From Clostridia bacterium (GTDB lineage Bacteria; Bacillota; Clostridia; Oscillospirales; CAG-272), in the NCBI GenBank assembly GCA_017399305.1, contig JAFQDK010000009.1:124001-188000 (forward strand): a DNA stretch of 64,000 nucleotides. Reading direction: 5' to 3'. The notes beneath the pieces were generated by a model. It worked only from the letters and a program-made list of their open reading frames with translations. It had not been told where the DNA came from and ran no database searches. Below are positions 6,698-63,906 of this stretch, one piece after another. Position numbers and translations under genes: made by a program. Position 1 is the stretch's first letter, and the number at the start of each line of letters is the position of its first letter.

Positions 6698-7601
6698 GAC
6701 TCCCGCACCTTTCAGCGGAATTTTAGTTTTAGATAAGCCGCAGGGCTTTACCTCGCATGACGCGGTGGGAAAGCTCCGCAGGCTTATGAATACACGTCAG
6801 ATAGGGCATACAGGCACGCTTGACCCACTTGCGACAGGCGTGCTTCCCATGCTCTGCGGACGTGCTGTTAAAGCAAGCGAATATCTGAGCGCGCATGATA
6901 AAGCGTATGAGGCGACATTTATTCTCGGTAAAGTAAGCGAAACCGGCGATACTGACGGCGCGGTTACTGATACAGGTAAGGCTGTCCCTACCGAGGATGT
7001 TGTCCTTGCTGCCGTAAATGCTATGGTGGGCAAGCATATGCAGATACCGCCGATGACCTCGGCGATAAAAGTAAACGGTAAAAAGCTTGTAGATTATCAG
7101 CGCGCCGGCGAGACAGTTGAAGTTCCGCCGCGCCCTATTGAGATATATTCATGCACTGCAAAAAAAATCAGCGAGTGTGAGTATTCGCTTTTTCTTGAAG
7201 TGTCAAAGGGGACGTATGTGCGCACTGTCATTACCGATATAGGTGATGCGCTTGGTTGCGGTGCAGTAATGTCCTCGCTTCGCCGTACAAAGAGCGGCGC
7301 GTTTGACCTTTCAAATGCATATACTTTAGAACAGCTTGAGGCAATGAGCTATGAGGAGCGTGTGGCGCTTTTGCGCCCGCTTGAGGACGCTTTTGTGGAC
7401 ACACAAAAGGTGGTGCTTCCGCCCTTCTTTGCAAAACTTTGCCGAAGCGGTTGTGAAATATATCTAAAAAAAATCGGCAAGAGCTTTGATGTTGGATGCC
7501 GCGTTAAACTCTATGATGAGAGAGGCTTTTTCGCGCTCGGCGAAGTGCGGGATTATCCGGACGGCAAAGCCATAAAAATGATAAAATTATTTTCTCTTTA
7601 A
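6690..7601 (+). CDS. truB: tRNA pseudouridine(55) synthase
   Basis: Converts U55 of the tRNA T-loop to pseudouridine. About 303 residues from ATG 6690, which I chose because AAAGGAAG lies just upstream and the start overlaps the aspS end (ATGAATAA). The N-terminus GILVLDKPQGFTSHDAV and the catalytic motif GHTGTLDPLATGVL (Asp45) are diagnostic. KGTYVRTVITDIG and LRRTKSGAF follow, then a short PUA-like C-terminal segment. No ribF-type partner is adjacent; the next gene is pgeF after 15 bases. Confidence 0.96.
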   Translation: MNKTPAPFSGILVLDKPQGFTSHDAVGKLRRLMNTRQIGHTGTLDPLATGVLPMLCGRAVKASEYLSAHDKAYEATFILGKVSETGDTDGAVTDTGKAVPTEDVVLAAVNAMVGKHMQIPPMTSAIKVNGKKLVDYQRAGETVEVPPRPIEIYSCTAKKISECEYSLFLEVSKGTYVRTVITDIGDALGCGAVMSSLRRTKSGAFDLSNAYTLEQLEAMSYEERVALLRPLEDAFVDTQKVVLPPFFAKLCRSGCEIYLKKIGKSFDVGCRVKLYDERGFFALGEVRDYPDGKAIKMIKLFSL

Positions 7602-7616
7602 AGGAAAACTTTAACC

Positions 7617-8423
7617 ATGCAAAAACGCACTGACTATAACGGTGTAACCTATTTTTATTCGGAGGGGCTTTACCCCATCCGCCACGGCTTTTCTACAAGA
7701 GAGGGCGGACTTTCAAAACTTGATTACACAAAATCACTAAACCTCGGTTTTTACCGCGGCGATAAAGATATTATTGTAAAGAAGAATATTGAACGCTTCT
7801 GCGAAGCTGTAGCGATTGACGCAGAAGAGCTTATTATAATGCCTCAGATACATTCTACCAATGTAATTGAGGTTGGTAGAGATAAATGTGGGCACGGCAT
7901 CTATTCGCCTGCAACATTTGAGGGTGATGCACTTGTAAGCTGTTCACGCGGTACAGCCCTCGGTGTCAGAGTGGCAGACTGTGTGCCGATACTCCTTGCA
8001 GATAGCGGCGCCGGTGTTATCGCGGCTGTTCATGCAGGCTGGAGAGGCACGGTGGGCAACATCGTCGGCGCAACTATTGAAAAGATGTGCTATCTCGGTG
8101 CGTCTGCCGAGGATATCAAGGCGGCGATAGGTCCGCACATTTCAATGGCAAACTATGAGGTTGGCGACGAGGTGGCAAAGCAGGTGCTTGCCGCTGTTGG
8201 CAATGAAAATCTCACATTCGCGCATCTCCGTCCATCTGAAAACGAGGGCAAATTCCTCTGCGGTCTTGGCGAGGTCAACAAGACGTTGCTCATCAAGGCA
8301 GGCGTTAAAGAGGAGAACATTGATATGTGCACAGAGTGCACATACGATAATAAAGAACTCTTTTTCTCACATCGTCGTATGGGCGAAAAGCGCGGAACTA
8401 TGATGGGAGTTATCGCAATATAA
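7617..8423 (+). CDS. pgeF: Peptidoglycan editing factor PgeF / polyphenol oxidase (YfiH family)
   Basis: 268 residues of the laccase-domain (YfiH/PgeF) family. In E. coli the homologue hydrolyses mis-incorporated L-Ser from UDP-MurNAc-L-Ser; other members have been reported as purine nucleoside-active enzymes. Metal and active-site motifs visible are QIHSTNV, VADCVPILLAD, AAVHAGWRGTVGNI and the C-terminal CTYDNKELFFSHRR. The start ATG 7617 follows AAAGGAAA. The last 25 bases of the gene are part of a 92-bp unit that is duplicated downstream. Confidence 0.93.
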   Translation: MQKRTDYNGVTYFYSEGLYPIRHGFSTREGGLSKLDYTKSLNLGFYRGDKDIIVKKNIERFCEAVAIDAEELIIMPQIHSTNVIEVGRDKCGHGIYSPATFEGDALVSCSRGTALGVRVADCVPILLADSGAGVIAAVHAGWRGTVGNIVGATIEKMCYLGASAEDIKAAIGPHISMANYEVGDEVAKQVLAAVGNENLTFAHLRPSENEGKFLCGLGEVNKTLLIKAGVKEENIDMCTECTYDNKELFFSHRRMGEKRGTMMGVIAI

Positions 8424-8616
8424 AAGTATTTGCGTGTTTTATTAAAACCGCAGACGATAAGTCTGCGAGCAAATACAGACCGCGACCGAACCGGAAGTTG
8501 AATATTAGATGAATGTGGTCGCGGTATGATGGGAGTTATCGCAATATAAAAGTATTTGCGTGTTTTATTAAAACCGCAGACGATAAGTCTGCGAGCAAAT
8601 ACAGGCCGCGACCGAA
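8399..8616. repeat. Direct duplication of a 92-bp unit carrying two structured elements (copies B and C)
   Basis: Bases 8399-8490 are repeated at 8525-8616 (offset 126) with one mismatch (8479 A versus 8605 G); 34 unique bases lie between. The unit starts inside the pgeF 3' end, so copy two contains a dead copy of the gene's last codons. Each unit holds an outer stem GTATTTGC/GCAAATAC (8426-8433/8469-8476; 8552-8559/8595-8602) enclosing hairpins GTTTT-att-AAAAC and CGCAGAC-gataa-GTCTGCG. CCGCGACC after the first copy can also pair with GGTCGCGG (8517-8524). Confidence 0.85.
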
Positions 8617-8649
8617 ATTCAGTTGCGGTGAGATTTGTTTGAGGTGTTT

Positions 8650-9804
8650 ATGAAAACTTTGTTAAGCATACTCCTCCTTGCTGTGGCAGTTATGGTTTTT
8701 ATCAATGTTTGGTCATACGCTGATTCATCAAATATTGAGGATCGTAATCGCGAACAGTACGGCGGAGATAGCAGTGTGGTAGATATAACCACTCCTCCTG
8801 AAACTACAGAAGCGGAAATAACAACAGAAAAGGTAGTCACCGAAAAAGAGCCTACCGCATACGCAAGAGCAAAACTGTTTTTTGGCGGTGATATTAATCT
8901 TGACCCTGAATACAGCGCATCCGAGCGATATATTAATGGCGATGAGAATATCAAAAACTGTTTTTCGACAACTATCCTTGGTCTTGTAAGAGATGCGGAT
9001 ATGTTCATGGTGGGAAATGTTTTTGCCTTTACCGACAATGCAGATCCCATTGACAAGGTTTATACTTTCCGTACCGAAAAGAAGCATGCACAGTTTCTCG
9101 ATGATTTAGGTGTCGATGTTGTTTCTCTGGCGAATAATCACAGCTTTGATTATTCTGTTGCAGGATATGTTGATACTGTTGATGCACTTGATGATTTAGG
9201 TATCGTTTCTGTTGGTGCAGGCTTTAACGTTGCAGATGCGGCAAAGCCGTATTATGCAAACATCAACGGAATCACTGTTGCGTTTACTGCGGCAATGCGT
9301 TCTGAAAAGTATATTGATACTCCTGAGGCGTCTGCTACATCAGCCGGCGTTATGAAGATGTATGATATAGAAGCTTATGCCAACGTGATACGCGAGGCTA
9401 AGGCGAATGCAGACTTTGTCATTGCATATGTTCATTGGGGTACAGAGAATACAATCACGCTTGAAGATGAACAGATAGAGGGAGCAAAAGCCTTGATAGA
9501 TGCAGGTGCTGACGCTGTTATCGGCGCACATTCCCACACCGTTCAGCCTATTGAAATCTATAAGGGCAAGCCGATATTCTACAGCCTTGGTGATATGTTC
9601 AGCACCGAGGATAATAAGGAGAGCGGACTTGTCAGACTTATCATTGATTCAAACGGTAATTTAGAGGCTTCTTTTATACCATGTGAAAGCATTGGCGGAT
9701 ATGTTGACATTGCTTCTGAGGACACAAGCCGAGCTCTTTTCGGCAGACTCAATGAGTCGGATACTATCAGCCTTTCAAATAATGGCTCAATAGCAGAAAA
9801 ATAG
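8650..9804 (+). CDS. CapA family protein (poly-gamma-glutamate-type metallophosphoesterase)
   Basis: About 384 residues: a signal or anchor helix (residues 1-20), a Thr/Glu-rich linker (about 35-70) and a CapA/PgsA-like calcineurin-fold domain. Metal-site motifs are FFGGDINL, SLANNHSFDY, AYVHWGTE and GAHSHTVQPIE. CapA proteins take part in poly-gamma-glutamate capsule synthesis, but many single members like this one have unknown substrates, and no capB/capC genes are adjacent. It is predicted to be cell-surface. ATG 8650 with GAGGTG just before it is preferred over the upstream TTG at 8635. A strong terminator follows at 9811. Confidence 0.88.
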   Translation: MKTLLSILLLAVAVMVFINVWSYADSSNIEDRNREQYGGDSSVVDITTPPETTEAEITTEKVVTEKEPTAYARAKLFFGGDINLDPEYSASERYINGDENIKNCFSTTILGLVRDADMFMVGNVFAFTDNADPIDKVYTFRTEKKHAQFLDDLGVDVVSLANNHSFDYSVAGYVDTVDALDDLGIVSVGAGFNVADAAKPYYANINGITVAFTAAMRSEKYIDTPEASATSAGVMKMYDIEAYANVIREAKANADFVIAYVHWGTENTITLEDEQIEGAKALIDAGADAVIGAHSHTVQPIEIYKGKPIFYSLGDMFSTEDNKESGLVRLIIDSNGNLEASFIPCESIGGYVDIASEDTSRALFGRLNESDTISLSNNGSIAEK

Positions 9805-57244: not shown

Positions 57245-57985
57245 ATGATATCTGTTACATCGAATGGTATGATTAAACATTTTGGTTCTGTATCATCGAC
57301 AAATGACATTATAAAAGAAATGGCGAATGGCGGCGCCCCTGAGGGAAGCGTTGTTATCGCCGATGAGCAGACAAATGGTCGTGGGCGTCTTGGCAGAAGT
57401 TTTATGTCCCCCGGTGGTACAGGGCTTTATATGAGCATCCTGCTTCGCCCTGAGCTATCGGCATCGGATGCTTTGCTCATCACTACCGCGGCGGCAACCG
57501 CAGTGGCAAAAGCTATTGAGAAGCATACCGGAAAAGCTACTTGCATCAAATGGGTAAATGATGTTTTTTTGAACGGCAAAAAGGTTTGCGGAATTCTCAC
57601 TGAGGGCAAGGTATCGCCTGACGGTACTCTTGAGTATGCTGTGCTTGGTATAGGAGTAAACCTCAAAGAGCCGAAAGACGGATTCGGTGAGCTTTCAAAT
57701 ATCGCCGGTGCGATATTTGAAGATGAAAAAGTTGACAGGGATACAGTTGCCAACGATATTCTGGAGAACTTTTTTGGATATTATCAAAGCATTGAAACAA
57801 AGCCGCATTACAGTGATTATATTGCACGCGATATGATTGGCGGCAAAAATGTCACAGTTTATCGCGCAGGCGAACCGCTTTATGACGCAAAGGTTTTAGG
57901 CATATCCGAGGATTTTTCGCTTGTGATAGATCACGACGGCAAAAAAGAAAACCTCGCAAGCGGCGAGGTTTCTGTAAGAATATAA
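57245..57985 (+). CDS. birA: Biotin--[acetyl-CoA-carboxylase] ligase
   Basis: 246 residues without the N-terminal repressor helix-turn-helix, i.e. a group I ligase. The catalytic domain has VIADEQTNGRGRLGRSFMSP (biotinyl-AMP loop), GTGLYMSILLRP, KWVNDVFLNGKKVCGILTEG and AVLGIGVNLKEP; an SH3-like C-terminal domain ends the protein. It attaches biotin to carboxylase carrier proteins. A terminator overlaps its stop. Confidence 0.95.
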   Translation: MISVTSNGMIKHFGSVSSTNDIIKEMANGGAPEGSVVIADEQTNGRGRLGRSFMSPGGTGLYMSILLRPELSASDALLITTAAATAVAKAIEKHTGKATCIKWVNDVFLNGKKVCGILTEGKVSPDGTLEYAVLGIGVNLKEPKDGFGELSNIAGAIFEDEKVDRDTVANDILENFFGYYQSIETKPHYSDYIARDMIGGKNVTVYRAGEPLYDAKVLGISEDFSLVIDHDGKKENLASGEVSVRI

Positions 57986-58012
57986 AAAGGAACTCATACG
58001 AGTTCCTTTTTT
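57984..58012. terminator. Bidirectional terminator at the left edge of the accessory island
   Basis: AAAAAGGAACTC-atac-GAGTTCCTTTTTT. Stem, and partly flank, are nearly identical to those at 63294-63324 and 63867-63896. Confidence 0.9.
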
Positions 58013-58044
58013 AGTTTTTTGTATGATATATGATATTTTTTGGC

Positions 58045-58479
58045 TTACAGACAAAGTAAACTTATTTGAAGCAAGTATGGGGAGTGATAAAGACTCCACT
58101 CAGGATGCTTACGAGCAATCTCTTTATATACATCTTTAACAAATTTATGCCAAGGCCCCTTTATTCCTCCGTTTTCATTATTAACTGTTATGCTAATATC
58201 TCCATCGGTGATGTCATCTCTTGTTATTGTCGGAGAAATACCTAAAGTATCTGTAATCCAATCGTCGGAGCATTCACAATACACACCAAATATTTTTATT
58301 GAATAACCTGTTCCAAATTCTGAAGGATCATTGAATTCTCGCATGGAGATGTAAGAAAGCGTAAAAAGGTCGTGCTCCTTTATTTCTAAAGCCCATTTGT
58401 ACGCTATTTCGATAAATTTCACCGCAAAATCTATTTGTACTTTATTAATCTCTGTCCAGTTATTAAAAAATATTCCCAT
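58045..58479 (-). CDS. Hypothetical protein, last gene of the accessory operon
   Basis: 144 residues, no family recognised. An N-terminal helix (VQIDFAVKFIEIAYKWALEI) is followed by a strand-rich middle (GTGYSIKIFGVYCECSDDWI, GDISITVNNENGGIKGPW) and a short helical end. No signal peptide. AAGGAT lies before the ATG; it is 24 bases after the Sel1/CFI-box gene. Codon use is AT-rich like the rest of the island. Confidence 0.7.
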   Translation of the reverse strand: MGIFFNNWTEINKVQIDFAVKFIEIAYKWALEIKEHDLFTLSYISMREFNDPSEFGTGYSIKIFGVYCECSDDWITDTLGISPTITRDDITDGDISITVNNENGGIKGPWHKFVKDVYKEIARKHPEWSLYHSPYLLQISLLCL

Positions 58480-58503
58480 ATTTTTATCCTTAGTAAATAT
58501 AAT

Positions 58504-59517
58504 TCAATGTTTATCGTTGTAGGGTTCTTCTGAAAAACCTTTAGTCTTCAGTTCGGCAATCTTTTTGTCAAGCCAAGGTTTCCATAGCTTTTTAAACCAA
58601 CTGCATTTTCCGAACAATCTGACAAGAGTGGGGCTTGTTGCATAATATATACGTATAAACAATCTTCCAAAAACATTTTTATCAAGGACATTGTCACGAT
58701 ACCTACGCAGAACCCAAACCTCCGGGCAATCGTATGAACCGTAAACCGAGGTAGCAATATAGCAGCCCCCGCTGGAAGTGGCACTTCTTTTTGGGGGAGT
58801 GGTTATTGAATTTATCAACTCCGGAATACGATCAATATTGTTAAGTTCTTTGACAGCACGGTAATCACCACTGGAAGCTGCTTTTCTAACCAAAGATAGG
58901 TATTCTGGGTTTTCATCCGACCATCCGTAGCGTTCTTGCCGTATGTGCGCTAAAAGAAGAATACATCTGGGAGCATATATATCTGAAGCCTTGCTTCCCA
59001 TAACGGCGTAATACTCTGCTAAGTGAAGATCCTTTTCTGTAACAAGATTAGATGAATAGTATTCGCCGTAATTAGAGAAATCGAATGCAAGGGCGTAGCA
59101 CGCTAATGAAGAACCGGCTTCTGCAGCTGCTTTCATTAAACTTAATTTATCGCTTTCTGCCAGAAAAGCAAGCGCATACATTGCATCGGGGATGCTTTTT
59201 TGTGCCCCTGCTGATATCTGCTTTTTATATGTGTCATGGATGGCAGCGATATCTGAAATTGAAATGCCTGGGAAAATCATGGAGCATGTTGGGGTATCGG
59301 AGGCGAAGATAATGTGCGCCATAGCTAAATAATTACCATTATTTGCACTTTCAGCAAGCTTTTTTCCCCAGAACTTGCCTTCTTCGATATTTACCGGTGG
59401 GTCAGTCGGGTCGGTTTGCCCATATGCATGATGTATAACAATCATTCTTTGCGATGATGGGTCGCCTAGCTTAGCTTCGTATAAAAAAGATTCATATAAA
59501 CTTTGATCTAATGACAT
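58504..59517 (-). CDS. Sel1-like repeat protein with CFI-box C-terminal domain
   Basis: 337 residues. Residues about 40-225 are helical pairs of Sel1/TPR type, for example EGKFWGKKLAESANNGNYLA, KLSLMKAAAEAGSSLACYAL and LSLVRKAASSGDYRAVKEL. From about 250 comes a CFI-box module: GGCYIATSVYGSYDCPEVWV, LRRYRDNVLDKN, FGRLFIRIYYATSPTLVRLF. This module is a recurrent C-terminal tail in bacterial proteins of unknown role and may associate with membranes. Its start overlaps the JAMM gene by 10 bases, implying coupled production and a functional link with the protease. Confidence 0.8.
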   Translation of the reverse strand: MSLDQSLYESFLYEAKLGDPSSQRMIVIHHAYGQTDPTDPPVNIEEGKFWGKKLAESANNGNYLAMAHIIFASDTPTCSMIFPGISISDIAAIHDTYKKQISAGAQKSIPDAMYALAFLAESDKLSLMKAAAEAGSSLACYALAFDFSNYGEYYSSNLVTEKDLHLAEYYAVMGSKASDIYAPRCILLLAHIRQERYGWSDENPEYLSLVRKAASSGDYRAVKELNNIDRIPELINSITTPPKRSATSSGGCYIATSVYGSYDCPEVWVLRRYRDNVLDKNVFGRLFIRIYYATSPTLVRLFGKCSWFKKLWKPWLDKKIAELKTKGFSEEPYNDKH

Positions 59518-59933
59518 GTTAATACCTCGATTTTGTAGGGGTAAATTCTATACAGTTTTAATATATTTTTTGTTATATCAAATATTCCGCAGATCAGAGA
59601 AGGTGATTGTATAGCAGATAATACCTTTCTCACATATGCAATATCTTCATCCGAAAGATTTGAATTGTTAGGGTGCGAATGTACAAATCCTGCAAAAAAC
59701 AGCTTGCCGTCACTCACAGTATTATTAATTATTTCACTGAGCTTTTTCGTATCTGGCGTATAACTTGTTTCGGTACAGTTGCATGAATACAAATCGGGGG
59801 TAAACTTTACTATGGTGTTGTCGCCATTTGTAAAGATTACCCCGCCTTTTTCTATAATAGAATCTGATAAAAAACTATGTATCTCTGCTGAAATTTTTGA
59901 TAAAACTCTTATCTTTCTTCCCAGTGCGAGCAT
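59508..59933 (-). CDS. JAB/MPN (JAMM) domain metalloprotease-like protein
   Basis: 141 residues. The zinc-protease signature is visible in order: EKGGVIF (acid residue), then FVHSHPNNSNLSDEDI giving HSHP and the SxxD aspartate. This is the Prok-JAB arrangement used by peptidases that cut after ubiquitin-like modifiers or process small proteins. No ubiquitin, E1 or E2 homologue is recognisable nearby, so its substrate may be one of the mini-proteins of the operon. There is no good ribosome binding site before ATG 59933, which lies inside the preceding gene, so translation is probably coupled. Confidence 0.78.
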   Translation of the reverse strand: MLALGRKIRVLSKISAEIHSFLSDSIIEKGGVIFTNGDNTIVKFTPDLYSCNCTETSYTPDTKKLSEIINNTVSDGKLFFAGFVHSHPNNSNLSDEDIAYVRKVLSAIQSPSLICGIFDITKNILKLYRIYPYKIEVLTCH

Positions 59934-60103
59934 GAGGTGTTAGTATGAGGATCTTTGTATGAACCTATACGTTTACAATAATAATAGGGAGGCATGGATT
60001 TGGTATAGTCGGTCAAATCTAACCAGCGACAATCGCCGCAATAAGTCGCCGAGCAGAATGTTCCCTCAGGCAGATTTATGCAGTTGCTACATTTGTTGTT
60101 CAT
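59909..60103 (-). CDS. Cys-rich mini-protein, 64 residues
   Basis: MNNKCSNCINLPEGTFCSAT begins a 64-residue protein with seven cysteines (CSNC, FC, YCGDC, YC, SC), spaced like a zinc-binding knuckle pair. ATG 60103 has AAAGGAG seven bases upstream; the longer open frame 5' of it is the overlapping end of the previous gene read in another frame. It overlaps the JAMM gene start by 25 bases. No known family. Confidence 0.7.
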   Translation of the reverse strand: MNNKCSNCINLPEGTFCSATYCGDCRWLDLTDYTKSMPPYYYCKRIGSYKDPHTNTSCSHWEER

Positions 60104-60119
60104 TTGATATCTCCTTTGC

Positions 60120-60281
60120 TTAGCGCCTTTTTTCTTTCTCGAAATACTGAAATATAGGACACTTTTTGGTTTCATCACATTTGCAATACTCTTTATATGT
60201 ATCTGTTGATATTTCAGTGTCTTTTAAAATGCAGAAGTATTTGTTACTTTTTTCAATAAAGTAATCACAGTATTTTGCCAT
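60120..60281 (-). CDS. Cys-containing mini-protein, 53 residues
   Basis: Translation from ATG 60281 gives MAKYCDYFIEKSNKYFCILK, then DTEISTDTYKEYCKCDETKK and CPIFQYFEKEKRR. Five cysteines (5, 17, 33, 35, 41) suggest a metal or Fe-S site. GAAAGGAG lies before the ATG. It is followed after 16 bases by the 64-residue Cys-rich gene with its own AAAGGAG. The sequence ends precisely at a stop inside this spacing, supporting a real gene. Confidence 0.7.
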   Translation of the reverse strand: MAKYCDYFIEKSNKYFCILKDTEISTDTYKEYCKCDETKKCPIFQYFEKEKRR

Positions 60282-60296
60282 TTCGGGCTCCTTTCA

Positions 60297-60473
60297 TTAA
60301 AGGTTTGCATGGCTGTAGGGAGTTTCACCTTTGCCATAGCACTCTCCGCATTCTTTGCGACCATCGCCGTTGCAGTAGCCGCAAGTTTTATCTTCATAAC
60401 GGGGATCCTTTTTAGAACCTTTACAAACGGGGCAAATCAGGTATCCACTACCTTTACATTCTCTACAGGTCAT
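60297..60473 (-). CDS. Stand-alone DnaJ-type zinc-finger mini-protein, 58 residues
   Basis: ATG 60473 opens MTCRECKGSGYLICPVCKGS, then a loop KKDPRYEDKT and CGYCNGDGRKECGECYGKG, ending TPYSHANL. Four CxxCxG(x)G repeats in a row are exactly the arrangement of the central zinc-binding domain of DnaJ/Hsp40, here without J domain or substrate-binding domain. In DnaJ this region binds two Zn2+ and helps client recognition. GGGAG lies 10 bases upstream, within the end of the 47-residue gene. It could be a chaperone adaptor or metal-binding partner for the operon's other products. Confidence 0.8.
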   Translation of the reverse strand: MTCRECKGSGYLICPVCKGSKKDPRYEDKTCGYCNGDGRKECGECYGKGETPYSHANL

Positions 60474-60478
60474 TGTGA

Positions 60479-60622
60479 TTAAACTCCCATCTTCTTTACG
60501 ATTTCCTGAACATCAGGATTGTTTTCGCCAAGGTCAGCCTTCATTTCTTTAAGAATTGCAATGATCTCCGACTTTGAAGATGCGTTTGCGATTTTCTCCT
60601 TATAATATGCTGTTGATGCCAT
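60479..60622 (-). CDS. Small helical mini-protein, 47 residues
   Basis: MASTAYYKEKIANASSKSEI, then IAILKEMKADLGENNPDVQE and IVKKMGV. Probably two helices; no cysteine or signal peptide. AGGAGG seven or eight bases before ATG 60622 is one of the strongest ribosome binding sites of the island, so it may be the most abundant product. No family recognised. Confidence 0.72.
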   Translation of the reverse strand: MASTAYYKEKIANASSKSEIIAILKEMKADLGENNPDVQEIVKKMGV

Positions 60623-60648
60623 GATATATAACCTCCTAAAAATATAAT

Positions 60649-62373
60649 TTAACTGATTACTCTTTTTATAATATCAAGAAGAATAGTGTAGTACATGTTT
60701 TCTTCCTCTTGCTTTGCTTTGCTTCCGCCAAAGCCTTGGATAGCGCCGATAGCGCCGCCAATCAAGCCGTTTACAAGAGTAGAACTGTTGTTTTTCGGCT
60801 CCCAATATTGTTTCCAGCCGCCTGATACTTGAGATTTTGCGTTTTCTTTGTGGGCAAGTTTTTTGCTGTTTTTGCTTATTCCAAAGTCGTTTGCGTATAC
60901 AATAGTTGCGTTACCCTGGCGGCGTAAACTTATTGCTAAATTATAGTAGTCTTTTTTGTGGTCAGGATGGAAAACAATAAGACAATCTAACAGTTCTTTT
61001 AATAAAGCACCGCCGTTATTTATTCTTCCATATTCAAAAGCAACTGGAATGCAGATTTCTTCTGCTTCTGCGGCGATAGCCTTTGCTATGATTTCTAGTG
61101 TTATTTCATTACCGTTTTTGTACATGCAAGGCTTTTGTAACTCACGCATATCCTTGGCTTTGATTACCTTCTTTGAAGTGGGAATATAAAAAGTGTCCTG
61201 TACAGGCTCAACATATTCAGATGAATCAACATTTTCTAAAGGTTCATCGTATTCCATAGGCATTGCTTCTTCCGGTACTTCTTCAATTATCTCAGAAGCT
61301 TCTGTGGTAGCGTTGTGTGAATTAGCTGCTTCGGTTGAGTTTGCTTTATAGATTGATATTGCCGGAGCAACTTTTTCCACTAATTCGGCAATGAGAGTAG
61401 AATAAGTATCTTCCTCGCTTAAGCCATTTTTATGACACTGGTTCCAAGTAATTGAAACGTCCAATTTAATACAGTTTGTTAAAGTTGGATTTTCTATTAC
61501 CTTATGGCAAAAAGAAATAACATCATTTTCAGTATCAGTAAGGTTTTCATATGTGGAATAAAATGTAATTAAAGTTTGAGCCTGTTCTACATATATTTGT
61601 TGCACTTTTTCGTTATGTGCAATTTCAAGTAATGGGTAGGCACTGCTTAAGATATCGTTATATGTCTTTTTTAATTGCTCGAGTTTTGAAAGCCCGGTTT
61701 CTTTTTGTTGGGGTTCTGGATTTATAGTAACTCTTTTCTCGGTTGTAGGTTCGGTAATGATTTCCGGCTCATGAGTAGCTTTCGGTTCAGTAACAACCTT
61801 GACTTCAGAAATAGTTTCCGGAGTGGATGCAACTTGAGGTTTAATAATAACCTTTGGCTCTTTTTTTATAATAGGTTGGGATTTGTTAGGTGCTACTCGG
61901 CGAAATGAGCTAACTCCATTGGTCGGTCGTTCAGCGTCGCTTGCTTTTTCAGGTATAGTAACATCAGGCGCTTTTTTTACTATAATTGTATGATGATAGA
62001 AATTTAGATCGATCCAAGGAATATCTAAAAGCTTTTCGACAATTATGTATTGCATTCCAAGCAATGTTTCGTCAATCATTTTTATGCCATGATCCTCAAA
62101 AGAGAAAAGAGGCTTTTTACGTTCTTCGGGGTAGAGTTTTTGCAACCCTTCACCGCTAAGCATTTCAAATATTATTGCTTTCTTTTTAAAATGTATGAAA
62201 TAACTTCCTCCACATCTGAGGAGTGTGACGGGTAAGCCATCGGGGTCTAAAATATGTTCGCAGATATCCGTTGTTATGTTTTGTAATTGGGGATTTGTGC
62301 GCAATACGAGCTCTTTTTTTGGTTTAAGTGTGTTGTTTAAAAAGTTTTTAAGTTTTTCTGAGATGTTGTACAT
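60649..62373 (-). CDS. Large accessory-operon protein with disordered linker and glycine zipper
   Basis: 574 residues, no recognised family. An N-terminal globular region (about 1-140; LLRCGGSYFIHFKKKAIIFE) is followed by a Pro/Glu/Thr/Lys-rich linker (about 140-235), a helical region (about 235-345; KLEQLKKTYNDILSSAYPLL), a second acidic linker (about 350-400) and a C-terminal domain (about 410-530) with PVAFEYGRINNGGALLKELL, then FHPDHKKDYYNLAISLRRQG. Near the end, LVNGLIGGAIGAIQGFGG is a glycine zipper able to insert in or associate with membrane. It may be the scaffold of the system. Confidence 0.75.
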   Translation of the reverse strand: MYNISEKLKNFLNNTLKPKKELVLRTNPQLQNITTDICEHILDPDGLPVTLLRCGGSYFIHFKKKAIIFEMLSGEGLQKLYPEERKKPLFSFEDHGIKMIDETLLGMQYIIVEKLLDIPWIDLNFYHHTIIVKKAPDVTIPEKASDAERPTNGVSSFRRVAPNKSQPIIKKEPKVIIKPQVASTPETISEVKVVTEPKATHEPEIITEPTTEKRVTINPEPQQKETGLSKLEQLKKTYNDILSSAYPLLEIAHNEKVQQIYVEQAQTLITFYSTYENLTDTENDVISFCHKVIENPTLTNCIKLDVSITWNQCHKNGLSEEDTYSTLIAELVEKVAPAISIYKANSTEAANSHNATTEASEIIEEVPEEAMPMEYDEPLENVDSSEYVEPVQDTFYIPTSKKVIKAKDMRELQKPCMYKNGNEITLEIIAKAIAAEAEEICIPVAFEYGRINNGGALLKELLDCLIVFHPDHKKDYYNLAISLRRQGNATIVYANDFGISKNSKKLAHKENAKSQVSGGWKQYWEPKNNSSTLVNGLIGGAIGAIQGFGGSKAKQEEENMYYTILLDIIKRVIS

Positions 62374-62407
62374 ATCTAAAATTAGACTCCGTTAGTATTT
62401 ATGTCAA

Positions 62408-62854
62408 TTACCATTTTTGCAACTTTGGCGGATAGATTTTAATCTGATCATTGTCGTATACAATTTCATAGCCTGATTCTTTGATTTCTTCTACTATGAT
62501 TTTTGTTAATTCATCGCTCATTGCATTGCTTTTCAATCGTTGCCAACCAAGTTGTTCAAATTTGATTATCCAAATAGTTTGAAGGTGAAATTCTGCTTGC
62601 TTAAACCAAGCGTTAAACCATACGCCATCTTTTGATACTATAAGCCAAATGTAGTTATAATATAATTGCTTATTGTAGAAATATTCATCAAATTCTCGAT
62701 TTTTAAAGGTTTGAATTATTGTGTCTACAAGTGCTTGCGTTTTTGCGCTGTTGCGAATGGTTTCTCTGTCTGTTTGTTCTTGCGCTTTTTTTATTTGGCG
62801 TTGTTGCTCGCGTTCTTCTTTGCTTCCAAACAAAAGTGAAAAGAATCCGGCCAT
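62408..62854 (-). CDS. Hypothetical protein, first gene of the accessory operon
   Basis: About 148 residues from ATG 62854 (GGGGTGG site). It starts MAGFFSLLFGSKEEREQQRQ with a short hydrophobic N-terminus, a charged helical stretch and then a compact domain: FDEYFYNKQLYYNYIWLIVS, WFNAWFKQAEFHLQTIWIIK, and YEIVYDNDQIKIYP. No family recognised. It is the first gene behind the consensus promoter and lies 34 bases before the 574-residue protein. Confidence 0.72.
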   Translation of the reverse strand: MAGFFSLLFGSKEEREQQRQIKKAQEQTDRETIRNSAKTQALVDTIIQTFKNREFDEYFYNKQLYYNYIWLIVSKDGVWFNAWFKQAEFHLQTIWIIKFEQLGWQRLKSNAMSDELTKIIVEEIKESGYEIVYDNDQIKIYPPKLQKW

Positions 62855-62876
62855 TTTTACCACCCCTTCTATTGAC

Positions 62877-62905
62877 ATTATACGTTTCTATTCGTGGATT
62901 GTCAA
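62877..62905 (-). promoter_or_regulatory. Consensus promoter of the accessory operon with repeats for a regulator
   Basis: Minus strand TTGACA (62905-62900), 17 bp, TATAAT (62882-62877), a perfect match. TTCGTGGAT occurs at 62891-62899 inside the spacer and again at 62911-62919, upstream of the -35, as a 20-bp-spaced direct repeat. This is a likely operator for the divergent XRE protein. Confidence 0.85.
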
Positions 62906-62971
62906 CACATTTCGTGGATAGAAGAGGAATGAACCTCTAATTTTTGTATAATAATGATAAGGGGTGATGCT

Positions 62972-63295
62972 ATGACTTTCGGGAATATATTGCGAGAACT
63001 TTTAGAGGATAATAATATTACTCAAAAACAATTAGCAGAAGAACTAAACATTGCTGCTACTACCGTTGGCAATTATATTCGCGGAATAAGGGAACCGGAC
63101 TTTGAGATCTTAAAGCTTGTAGCATCATATTTTAATGTGACGACTGACTATCTTTTAGACTATAGATTAGATATAACAAAAACTCATAAAGAGGACGAGC
63201 TTATAAATATATATCGTTGTTTGTCTGATGAAAAGAAAGAGCTTTTGCTTGAACAAGGAAAATTGTTGGTCAATTTTGAAAGGAATAAGCAATAA
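62972..63295 (+). CDS. XRE-family repressor, divergent to the accessory operon
   Basis: About 107 residues from ATG 62972 (GGGGTG upstream). A helix-turn-helix ITQKQLAEELNIAATTVGNY, then IRGIREPDFEILKLVASYFN and VTTDYLLDYRLD, as in SOS-type or plasmid/phage repressors, with a helical tail LINIYRCLSDEKKELLLEQG. Its position suggests control of the accessory operon and of itself through the TTCGTGGAT repeats. A -10-like TATAAT lies at 62947-62952 without a clear -35. Confidence 0.88.
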   Translation: MTFGNILRELLEDNNITQKQLAEELNIAATTVGNYIRGIREPDFEILKLVASYFNVTTDYLLDYRLDITKTHKEDELINIYRCLSDEKKELLLEQGKLLVNFERNKQ

Positions 63296-63324
63296 AAAAA
63301 GGAACTCATATGAGTTCCTTTTTA
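63294..63324. terminator. Bidirectional terminator between the two XRE genes
   Basis: AAAAAGGAACTC-atat-GAGTTCCTTTTT, almost identical to 57984-58012 including the following TAGTTTTT. Confidence 0.9.
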
Positions 63325-63543
63325 GTTTTTAGATTTTGGGTATGGTGATTTTTCATCAGTCAATCCTGCAAGATAGTCCATGCTTGTTCCAAGTGCTAAT
63401 GCTATTCTCTTGCATTGCTCAAATGTATAGTAACGCAATCCACGTTCGATTTTTGAATAGTCGCTTTGGTCAATTCCTGTTAACATTTGCATTTTCAATT
63501 GTGTATATCCGCGTTCTTTTCTCAAGTTTTTAAGTCTGTCCAT
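63322..63543 (-). CDS. Small XRE-family regulator
   Basis: 73 residues. LKNLRKERGYTQLKMQMLTG, IDQSDYSKIERGLRYY, then TFEQCKRIALALGTSMDYLA: a complete single-domain Cro-like helix-turn-helix. GAGGTG lies before the ATG. Divergent from a small acidic protein gene; repeats AAATTGACCTAT between them (63570-63581 and 63595-63606) are candidate operators. Confidence 0.88.
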   Translation of the reverse strand: MDRLKNLRKERGYTQLKMQMLTGIDQSDYSKIERGLRYYTFEQCKRIALALGTSMDYLAGLTDEKSPYPKSKN

Positions 63544-63579: not shown

Positions 63580-63608
63580 TTGACAATAGGGTTAAATTGA
63601 CCTATAAT
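63580..63608 (+). promoter_or_regulatory. Consensus promoter with operator-like direct repeats
   Basis: TTGACA (63580-63585), 17 bp, TATAAT (63603-63608). AAATTGACCTAT occurs twice with a 25-bp period, one copy upstream and one across the spacer and -10; CTATTGACAATAG (63578-63590) is an odd palindrome on the -35. Confidence 0.85.
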
Positions 63609-63628
63609 TGAAAAAGGGAGGTATTAAT

Positions 63629-63865
63629 ATGAATATAAAACTAGAATTATTGAAAGAAGAGATATCATATTATGTTACATCGCACTTGGACGAACTTAAT
63701 ATAGATGTGGATGAGATAGTTGATAGTGCAGCAGTTCTTATTTTGGCACAAATAAAGGAAATCTTACAAAACGATGAGTATACTGATTTCGATATTGTAG
63801 AGAAGATTGTAGAATTGTTTGAGCAAAATGGTATAGATTGTGGCGGATGTCATGATTTTGGATAA
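63629..63865 (+). CDS. Small acidic hypothetical protein
   Basis: 78 residues from ATG 63629 (GGGAGG upstream): MNIKLELLKEEISYYVTSHL, then a very acidic helical body (DELNIDVDEIVDSAAVLIL, NDEYTDFDIVEKIVELFEQN) and an end GIDCGGCHDFG with a CGGC pair. No family recognised. With the divergent XRE gene it forms a two-gene regulated unit; a toxin-antitoxin or antirepressor role is possible but unproved. Confidence 0.7.
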   Translation: MNIKLELLKEEISYYVTSHLDELNIDVDEIVDSAAVLILAQIKEILQNDEYTDFDIVEKIVELFEQNGIDCGGCHDFG

Positions 63866-63866
63866 C

Positions 63867-63896
63867 AAAAAAGGAACTCTTTTGAGTTCCTTTTTT
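63867..63896. terminator. Bidirectional terminator at the right edge of the island
   Basis: AAAAAAGGAACTC-tttt-GAGTTCCTTTTTT, third copy of the same stem. Serves rplA on the minus strand. Confidence 0.9.
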
Positions 63897-63906
63897 AATT
63901 GACATA

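Follow-up and report, generated by a model that had tools for sequence, protein, structure and literature searches.

XRE-type repressors are paired with metalloproteases in ImmR/ImmA and DdrO/IrrE, the peptidase being a zincin of the HEXXH kind, and the operons that combine a JAB peptidase with E1 and ubiquitin-like (Ubl) proteins have relatives in defence, namely CBASS with Cap2/Cap3 and Bil. According to the consulted parts of two sources, bacterial JAB operons come with E1 and/or Ubl genes (PMC1779556, 2006), and the JABs of toxins, outside Ubl systems, may be nucleases (PMC3482391, 2012). Here we describe an operon of nine genes (g1 to g9) on a stretch of 64,000 nucleotides (nt) from a Clostridia bacterium (contig JAFQDK010000009.1, positions 124,001 to 188,000), the whole of which is called the window. 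Judged from comparison of sequences across genomes, two of the nine genes form a two-gene core unit that is co-inherited and patchily distributed. One encodes a JAMM/JAB metallopeptidase and the other a small protein with four conserved cysteines (Cys4 mini-protein, or mini):

59508..59933, minus strand: g7, core gene, JAMM/JAB-family metallopeptidase of 141 amino acids (aa), with invariant E/H/H/S/D and matches to Prok-JAB and, in the PDB, to JAMM1
59909..60103, minus strand: g6, core gene, Cys4 mini-protein of 64 aa, overlapping the JAMM gene by 25 nt, with invariant cysteines and a profile match

A preliminary description of this DNA, made from its letters, had called g7 a JAMM peptidase, and this call holds, as the signature of E, HSH, S and D is intact. 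The residues E28, H85, H87, S94 and D97 (E...HxH...S..D) are kept in all 15 aligned members of the JAMM family, which is diverse (18-31% identity to g7). Alone, g7 reaches 19 bits against the Pfam family Prok-JAB, under the 25-bit cut-off. Twelve of the 15 members match Prok-JAB at E ≤ 0.1 (best 5.7e-8), and the best solved-structure match of the family profile is JAMM1 (5lda, E 1.1e-5). By motif and by profile alike, the g7 family is part of the JAMM/JAB metallopeptidase superfamily.

With g7 as query, JAMM genes were first matched in other genomes, and the loci in G101, G088, G017 and G026 were read. The family now comprises 18 loci, 16 of them in genomes of the phylum, one on an IMG/VR phage contig and one on a GenBank contig (the window, L053-L056, L085, L087-L091, L124-L128, L178 and L202; L053 is G101, L055 is G017 and also L047, L054 is also L046, L127 is G755, L178 is G1151 and L202 is MT839708.1). 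The GenBank contig MT839708.1 is labelled UNVERIFIED, and the IMG/VR contigs L084 and L085 encode identical JAMM and mini proteins and were counted as one locus. Strong JAMM profile matches were obtained in 8 of 394 genomes for the order, 6 of 391 for the class and 2 of 383 for the phylum; the window genome is included in each of these counts, and other genomes less than 80% complete were excluded. The scores are separated by a clear gap, with the strong matches at E < 1e-17 and the remainder at E > 1e-12. The latter were taken as other JAB types and left uncounted, most being read only as short loci. The JAMM cassette was not found in the four other genus genomes examined (75-84% complete). 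In the plasmid collection nothing matched the JAMMs of the window, L053 and L088 or g4. In the phage collection the L085 JAMM was unmatched, and those of L053 and L126 matched MT839708.1 only. Scans of viral contigs with single proteins of L127, L088, L053 and L125 gave no match.

Several weaker candidates were set aside. Four genus genomes (that of the window included) have weak JAMM matches in long frames, and the two that were read, L048 and L052, lie within ABC transporters and are chance matches. Genome G474 (E 1.2e-11) was dropped as a family locus for want of an intact JAMM open reading frame (ORF). Genome G637 (L129, E 3e-10) was read as a CBASS-like nucleotidyltransferase locus, the 590-aa protein of which matches the E1 of L083. 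The latter, on an IMG/VR contig, is a JAB-E1 fusion (positions 640-1977, ThiF E 9.9e-19), and the G474 locus (L092) partially matches this JAB-E1 stretch by eye.

The minis are about 60 aa long, and C22, C25, C43 and C58 are kept in all 13 that were aligned. An N-terminal segment resembling (I/V)x(L/I)PxGxF, with a nearly invariant proline, precedes the first cysteine. The C-termini are short and variable, none of the 13 ending in glycine. Among solved structures the mini had no match at E ≤ 10. Given its cysteines, it presumably binds metal.

The preliminary description had proposed a neighbourhood check, and this reveals that the JAMM/mini association recurs in other genomes. Of the 18 JAMM loci, 15 have a small gene that the mini profile A7 matches; since 13 of these 15 loci had built the profile, the blind tests weigh more than the count. 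In one such test, an eight-member mini profile (A4), made before the class was searched, was run on 1307 ORFs from 47 JAB loci. It matched all five newly found family loci (E 1.4e-18, 2.6e-14, 1.4e-10, 5e-4 and 0.013) and, at E ≤ 0.1, none of the 34 loci of weaker JAB-profile matches, a control from which L070, L071 and L078 were excluded. At the remaining eight family loci, six of which were training loci, A4 missed L054 and was borderline at L055 (E 0.016). Applied blind, the A7 profile picked up further minis, five of them in G1151 (E ≤ 2e-17) and a single one in MT839708.1 (E 5e-19). A mini was thus recovered blind at seven of the seven loci found via JAMM alone after the first round, with two weak scores. 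The match at L055 is a 72-aa ORF which has the family pattern by reading; another small Cys gene (8146-8430) follows downstream of it. The two small Cys-rich ORFs ahead of the L055 JAMM gene (8146-8430 and 8524-8742, minus strand) recall the g5-g6-g7 order of the window.

The two genes are also closely spaced. Among 17 loci the mini comes first in eight and the JAMM gene in nine, and they overlap or are at most 48 nt apart at 15 (the 48 nt entered for L055 refer to its second Cys gene); at 11 they overlap or are separated by at most 10 nt. Only at L085 (168 nt) and L178 (795 nt with one gene between) are they farther apart. At L091 the contig terminates inside the JAMM gene. In a mirror-tree comparison of 14 pairs, JAMM and mini distances correlate with r 0.72 (reached in 0 of 10000 permutations), which shows co-inheritance and is not proof of contact. 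A search for orphan minis in the 394 order genomes gave six strong matches, all six adjoining a family JAMM gene and all six at training loci. Three weak mini matches (E 3e-4 to 7e-4) appear to be chance matches: L139 and L140 were read, and the third has two internal stop codons.

No E1 was detected around the core. In a region of up to 6 kb around the JAMM gene, as far as the sequence extended, none of the 1782 ORFs at the 18 loci matched E1 (ThiF) with two phmmer queries, each of which found the other, and none of the three other small ORFs with GG near their end looks partner-like. The analogy to modifier/deconjugase systems drawn in the preliminary description thus finds no support as far as a classical ubiquitin-like modifier system is concerned, because no E1 was detected and the minis have no glycine tail.

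In the window, the core is embedded in a longer cassette with the following features:

62954..63295, plus strand: XRE-type regulator of 113 aa (HTH_3 E 1.6e-15; a divergent XRE gene is also present at seven other loci)
62877..62919, minus strand: promoter TTGACA-17-TATAAT and direct repeat, with ATCCACGAA on each side of the -35 box
62408..62854, minus strand: g1, first operon gene, 148 aa, no convincing family match
60649..62373, minus strand: g2, 574 aa, C-terminal glycine-rich stretch, N-terminus resembling that of the protein which opens the L053 cassette
60479..60622, minus strand: g3, 47 aa, AGGAGG ribosome-binding site, weak match to a 54-aa ORF of L011 (E 0.0037)
60297..60473, minus strand: g4, free-standing DnaJ-type zinc-finger mini-protein of 58 aa, recognised by its motifs, with a 71% identical gene in L053
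60120..60281, minus strand: g5, mini-protein of 53 aa, Cys-rich by reading
58504..59517, minus strand: g8, 337 aa, Sel1-like with a C-terminal CFI box (CFI_box_CTERM), variable add-on
58045..58479, minus strand: g9, 144 aa, a relative of which follows the JAMM gene in L087 (score reached by 0 of 1000 shuffles)

The layout agrees with the preliminary description. All nine minus-strand ORFs were found between 62854 and 58045 (148, 574, 47, 58, 53, 64, 141, 337 and 144 aa in operon order), with intergenic distances of 34, 26, 5, 15, 16, -25, -10 and 24 nt from g1 to g9, the overlaps that had been claimed being those of g6/g7 and g7/g8. The promoter described as perfect is indeed TTGACA-17-TATAAT, at 62905-62877 ahead of g1. 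The 9-nt direct repeat ATCCACGAA, with copies 20 nt apart, brackets its -35 box; because 72 of 2000 single-base shuffles of the promoter region produced a repeat of equal length, its reading as an operator is only suggestive. The claimed divergent XRE regulator is present and begins 99 nt from the operon, and the cassette is AT-rich (GC content 0.33-0.42 in 500-bp bins versus 0.43-0.48 in four bins of the left flank). Between this regulator and the end of rplA lie a second XRE-type gene (63322-63543, minus strand) and an 85-aa ORF (63608-63865, plus strand). Terminator-like palindromes of nearly the same sequence, AAAAGGAACTC..GAGTTCCTTTT, stand on both sides of the island and within it (57984-58016, 63296-63328 and 63868-63900), and the palindrome has seven perfect copies genome-wide. 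An empty site was sought, and birA and rplA are not adjacent in the three readable genus genomes, so that an insertion is not demonstrable from these two genes.

Across the 18 loci, a divergent XRE gene lies near eight (the window, L053, L054, L087, L090, L124, L126 and L202), a count made without a background XRE frequency. It is 59-136 nt from the first gene at six loci and 454 nt at L090; at L126 it overlaps the longest reading of the adjacent ORF and was excluded from this range. A divergent 87-aa ORF at L056, ribbon-helix-helix-like by eye and with no Pfam match, was not counted, and L125 stops too close to the JAMM cassette to judge.

The other genes of the cassette are variable. In the family libraries g1, g2, g3, g5, g6 and g9 have no convincing match; for the window proteins, matches of E 0.0005-1 to unrelated families were disregarded. 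The N-terminus of g2 matches that of the first L053 gene (BLASTP E 5e-4, score reached by 1 of 1000 shuffles), while a match at E 3.9e-4 in 196 genomes of the family was discounted as it covers only the repetitive middle (residues 146-249); no real homologue was found in these genomes. The glycine zipper of g2 comes from reading the sequence. In g4 we read four motifs of the CxxCxGxG type, of which the second has K as its last residue. The profile searches that had been proposed for JAB, CFI box and DnaJ zinc finger were run: the g7 match is the weak one given above, g4 matches Pfam DnaJ_CXXCXGXG at E 8.4e-5, under the cut-off, and the CFI box called in g8 was recovered (NCBIfam NF041770, CFI_box_CTERM, E 1e-20, 73 bits versus a cut-off of 40). 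The Sel1 half of that call was not recognised by Pfam and depends on likeness to L035, a relative of g8 in which Sel1-type repeats were read by eye. An IMG/VR contig (L086, 8001-8117) encodes a further relative of g4 (41% over 41 residues, E 3e-4). Likenesses of g1 to g2, g9 or L053 and of g5 to the 37-aa Cys mini of L053 are not significant, and that of g9 to the first gene of L089 was rejected (191 of 1000 shuffles reach its score).

The cassette of L053 (G101) opens with a 360-aa protein similar to g2 in its N-terminus, followed by a Cys mini of 37 aa, a mini of the DnaJ-finger type (71% identical to g4), a homologue of g6 and finally the JAMM protein, so that g6 and g7 travel together. It is the only other locus of the 18 with g4 and the g2 N-terminus, and a g9-like gene recurs only at L087. 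The nine genes were therefore rejected as one conserved system, and the stoichiometric set claimed in the preliminary description shrinks to the JAMM gene and the g6-type mini. What stands of its accessory system is a cassette with an XRE regulator, a JAMM peptidase and zinc-type minis. The Sel1/CFI-box protein has no place in the core, as neither JAMM nor Cys4 mini occurs in the 503 kb of the 33 CFI-box loci that g8 retrieved. Among these relatives, L035 (9104-15566) has a Sel1 and CFI-box protein near an Hsp70-like gene, and the longest-matching ones, from Lachnospiraceae (L009 and L011), lie amid WXG/LXG-like secretion substrate genes, all by eye; L011 also has the g3-like 54-aa ORF. Sel1-like proteins are encoded at four or more of the 18 loci, those recognised being the window (by similarity), L088, L090 and L091 (Pfam Sel1 E 0.0034, 3.2e-5 and 1.2e-5, respectively, all under the gathering score). 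Other variable partners, for which part of the neighbours was scanned, are RCC1-like (L054), ankyrin-like (L126, by eye) or zinc-ribbon/DUF6273 proteins (L125 and L128).

In its most compact complete form, found in MT839708.1, the cassette is reduced to XRE-JAMM-mini. On the L085 phage contig the pair lies on the opposite strand between portal and capsid genes (by eye). In G1151, the JAMM gene and five minis are flanked upstream by a CARF-HEPN gene (PADLOC 8.8e-84), the end of which is 5.7 kb from the JAMM gene, and about 14 kb downstream by a Cas10d/Cas5/Cas7 type III-D operon (Cas10d 3.9e-109), with several short CRISPR arrays around JAMM and minis. These arrays (4833-13949 of L178, G1151:C1:2117500-2137000) have a 26-nt repeat core and a period of mostly 64-69 nt; together with repeated leader-like DNA they are interspersed among the mini, JAMM and lipoprotein-like genes, and it seems unusual for arrays to be broken up by cargo genes in this way. 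Two TIR-type genes that match PADLOC models weakly lie within 3 kb in G755. Their products (6778-7545 and 12108-14525 of L127) stand on either side of JAMM/mini, one with MORN-like and the other with TPR-like repeats (by eye). Without a control for defence-gene density, the phage, CRISPR and TIR contexts are hints. The preliminary description had thought of a defence or stress island; one JAMM/mini occurrence is within a type III-D CRISPR-Cas locus, and many loci lie, by eye, amid housekeeping genes.

We favour, with a probability of about 0.4, the reading that the cassette is an XRE-controlled conflict or stress module of a JAMM peptidase and a dedicated Cys4 mini regulator. The XRE protein would repress the cassette, and the mini would be the dedicated regulatory partner of the peptidase, inhibiting or gating it in response to metal or redox conditions. 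Variable proteins of the repeat type (Sel1-like, Sel1-CFI, ankyrin-like, RCC1-like) or DUF6273 proteins could serve as sensors or target adaptors, and the whole may be an inducible accessory module against mobile elements or for stress. In the window, the cassette includes a zinc-finger mini of the DnaJ type and other small proteins besides this core. Several observations weigh against this reading. Binding, cleavage and any phenotype are hypothetical, and metal binding by the mini is presumed from its cysteines alone. The mirror-tree correlation can be produced by co-inheritance of linked genes alone, and the orphan-mini search is circular, its profile having been made from the same loci that it returned. 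L054 has no recognised mini, a small Cys-poorer ORF adjoining its JAMM gene instead, and at L055 the mini match is only E 0.016 with the second small Cys gene intervening before JAMM. No adjacent XRE gene was recognised at 10 of the 18 loci, many loci are by eye single cassettes amid housekeeping genes, and few of the 18 contexts suggest phage conflict. In G1151, 795 nt and one gene separate the JAMM gene from its nearest mini, and five minis per JAMM fit a substrate, a modifier or an antitoxin better than a 1:1 subunit.

The closest rival to the gate reading takes the mini as a processed protein or modifier: it would be a substrate or novel modifier which JAMM trims or removes from targets, with no E1/E2 in the operon. 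The five copies in G1151 and the common N-terminal segment with its proline speak for it, but the failure to detect E1 near the 18 loci and the variable C-termini without terminal glycine make it somewhat unlikely. Less likely still is a metal or redox stress (proteostasis) operon that is no conflict system at all. The DnaJ-type finger of g4, the Cys-rich g5 and g6, the zinc-ribbon/DUF6273 partners at L125 and L128 and the housekeeping surroundings of many loci (by eye) would fit such an operon, whereas its rare and patchy occurrence, with no cassette found in the four other genus genomes, and its presence in a phage contig and a CRISPR locus do not. We consider it improbable that the pair is toxin-antitoxin-like, with JAMM acting as a toxin (a peptidase or nuclease) and the mini neutralising it, in the manner suggested for polymorphic-toxin JABs, as the nearest solved relative by sequence is JAMM1, a JAMM protein and peptidase. 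For this arrangement speak the XRE gene adjoining a two-gene unit and the Tox-JAB clades put forward as nucleases in the consulted part of one source (PMC3482391). Chance neighbourhood in an AT-rich island would account for the CFI-box protein, g1, g3 and g5, which have no recurrent link at the other 17 loci (at L202 judged by reading its ORFs); for the core pair it is contradicted by the blind recovery at seven of seven new loci, and as an explanation of the whole it is very improbable.

Compared with known systems, no model in the searched libraries covers the gene set, in line with the earlier statement that no named system with it is known. In PADLOC-DB 2.0, g7 matches only JAB or JAB-bearing models (best 1.3e-5; an E1-E2 model at 5.3e-5 over the JAB part) and the regulator matches helix-turn-helix (HTH) models (best 2e-8); the remaining window genes have no match below 0.02, and no known anti-phage model covers the set. 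A published description of the JAMM/Cys4-mini pairing was not found among the matches listed. Whether this is a new bacterial and phage conflict module, in which JAMM and a Cys4 mini modifier or gate work without ubiquitin-like machinery, with swappable repeat-protein sensors and recruitment into a type III-D CRISPR-Cas locus, is doubtful, and we put it forward tentatively. Its two-gene core is small enough for purification and direct testing, and the phage and CRISPR contexts indicate where a phenotype might be sought.

With ImmR/ImmA and DdrO/IrrE, the locus shares an XRE regulator near a metallopeptidase gene; unlike in ImmA and IrrE, the conserved motif is of the JAMM and not the HEXXH kind, and the XRE gene is missing from the recognised neighbours at 10 of 18 loci. 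Among solved structures, the family profile matches the archaeal JAMM1 (5lda/5ld9) most closely in sequence (E 1.1e-5), and we know of no Cys4 mini partner for this protein. The Tox-JABs of polymorphic toxins, as far as the consulted part of their description goes (PMC3482391), have in common with g7 a JAB domain outside Ubl systems, whereas here the JAB is a stand-alone gene, no toxin delivery domain was noticed and the partner falls into none of the immunity families known to the searched libraries. The JAB-E1/Ubl operons, in the consulted part of the source (PMC1779556), share with our locus a Prok-JAB-type peptidase, a patchy operon and small proteins. They differ in that here no E1 was detected, no E2 or ubiquitin-like protein was noticed and the partner is a Cys4 mini without C-terminal glycine. 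If the favoured reading is borne out, JAMM enzymes would gain a second mode of working besides that of the E1/Ubl operons.

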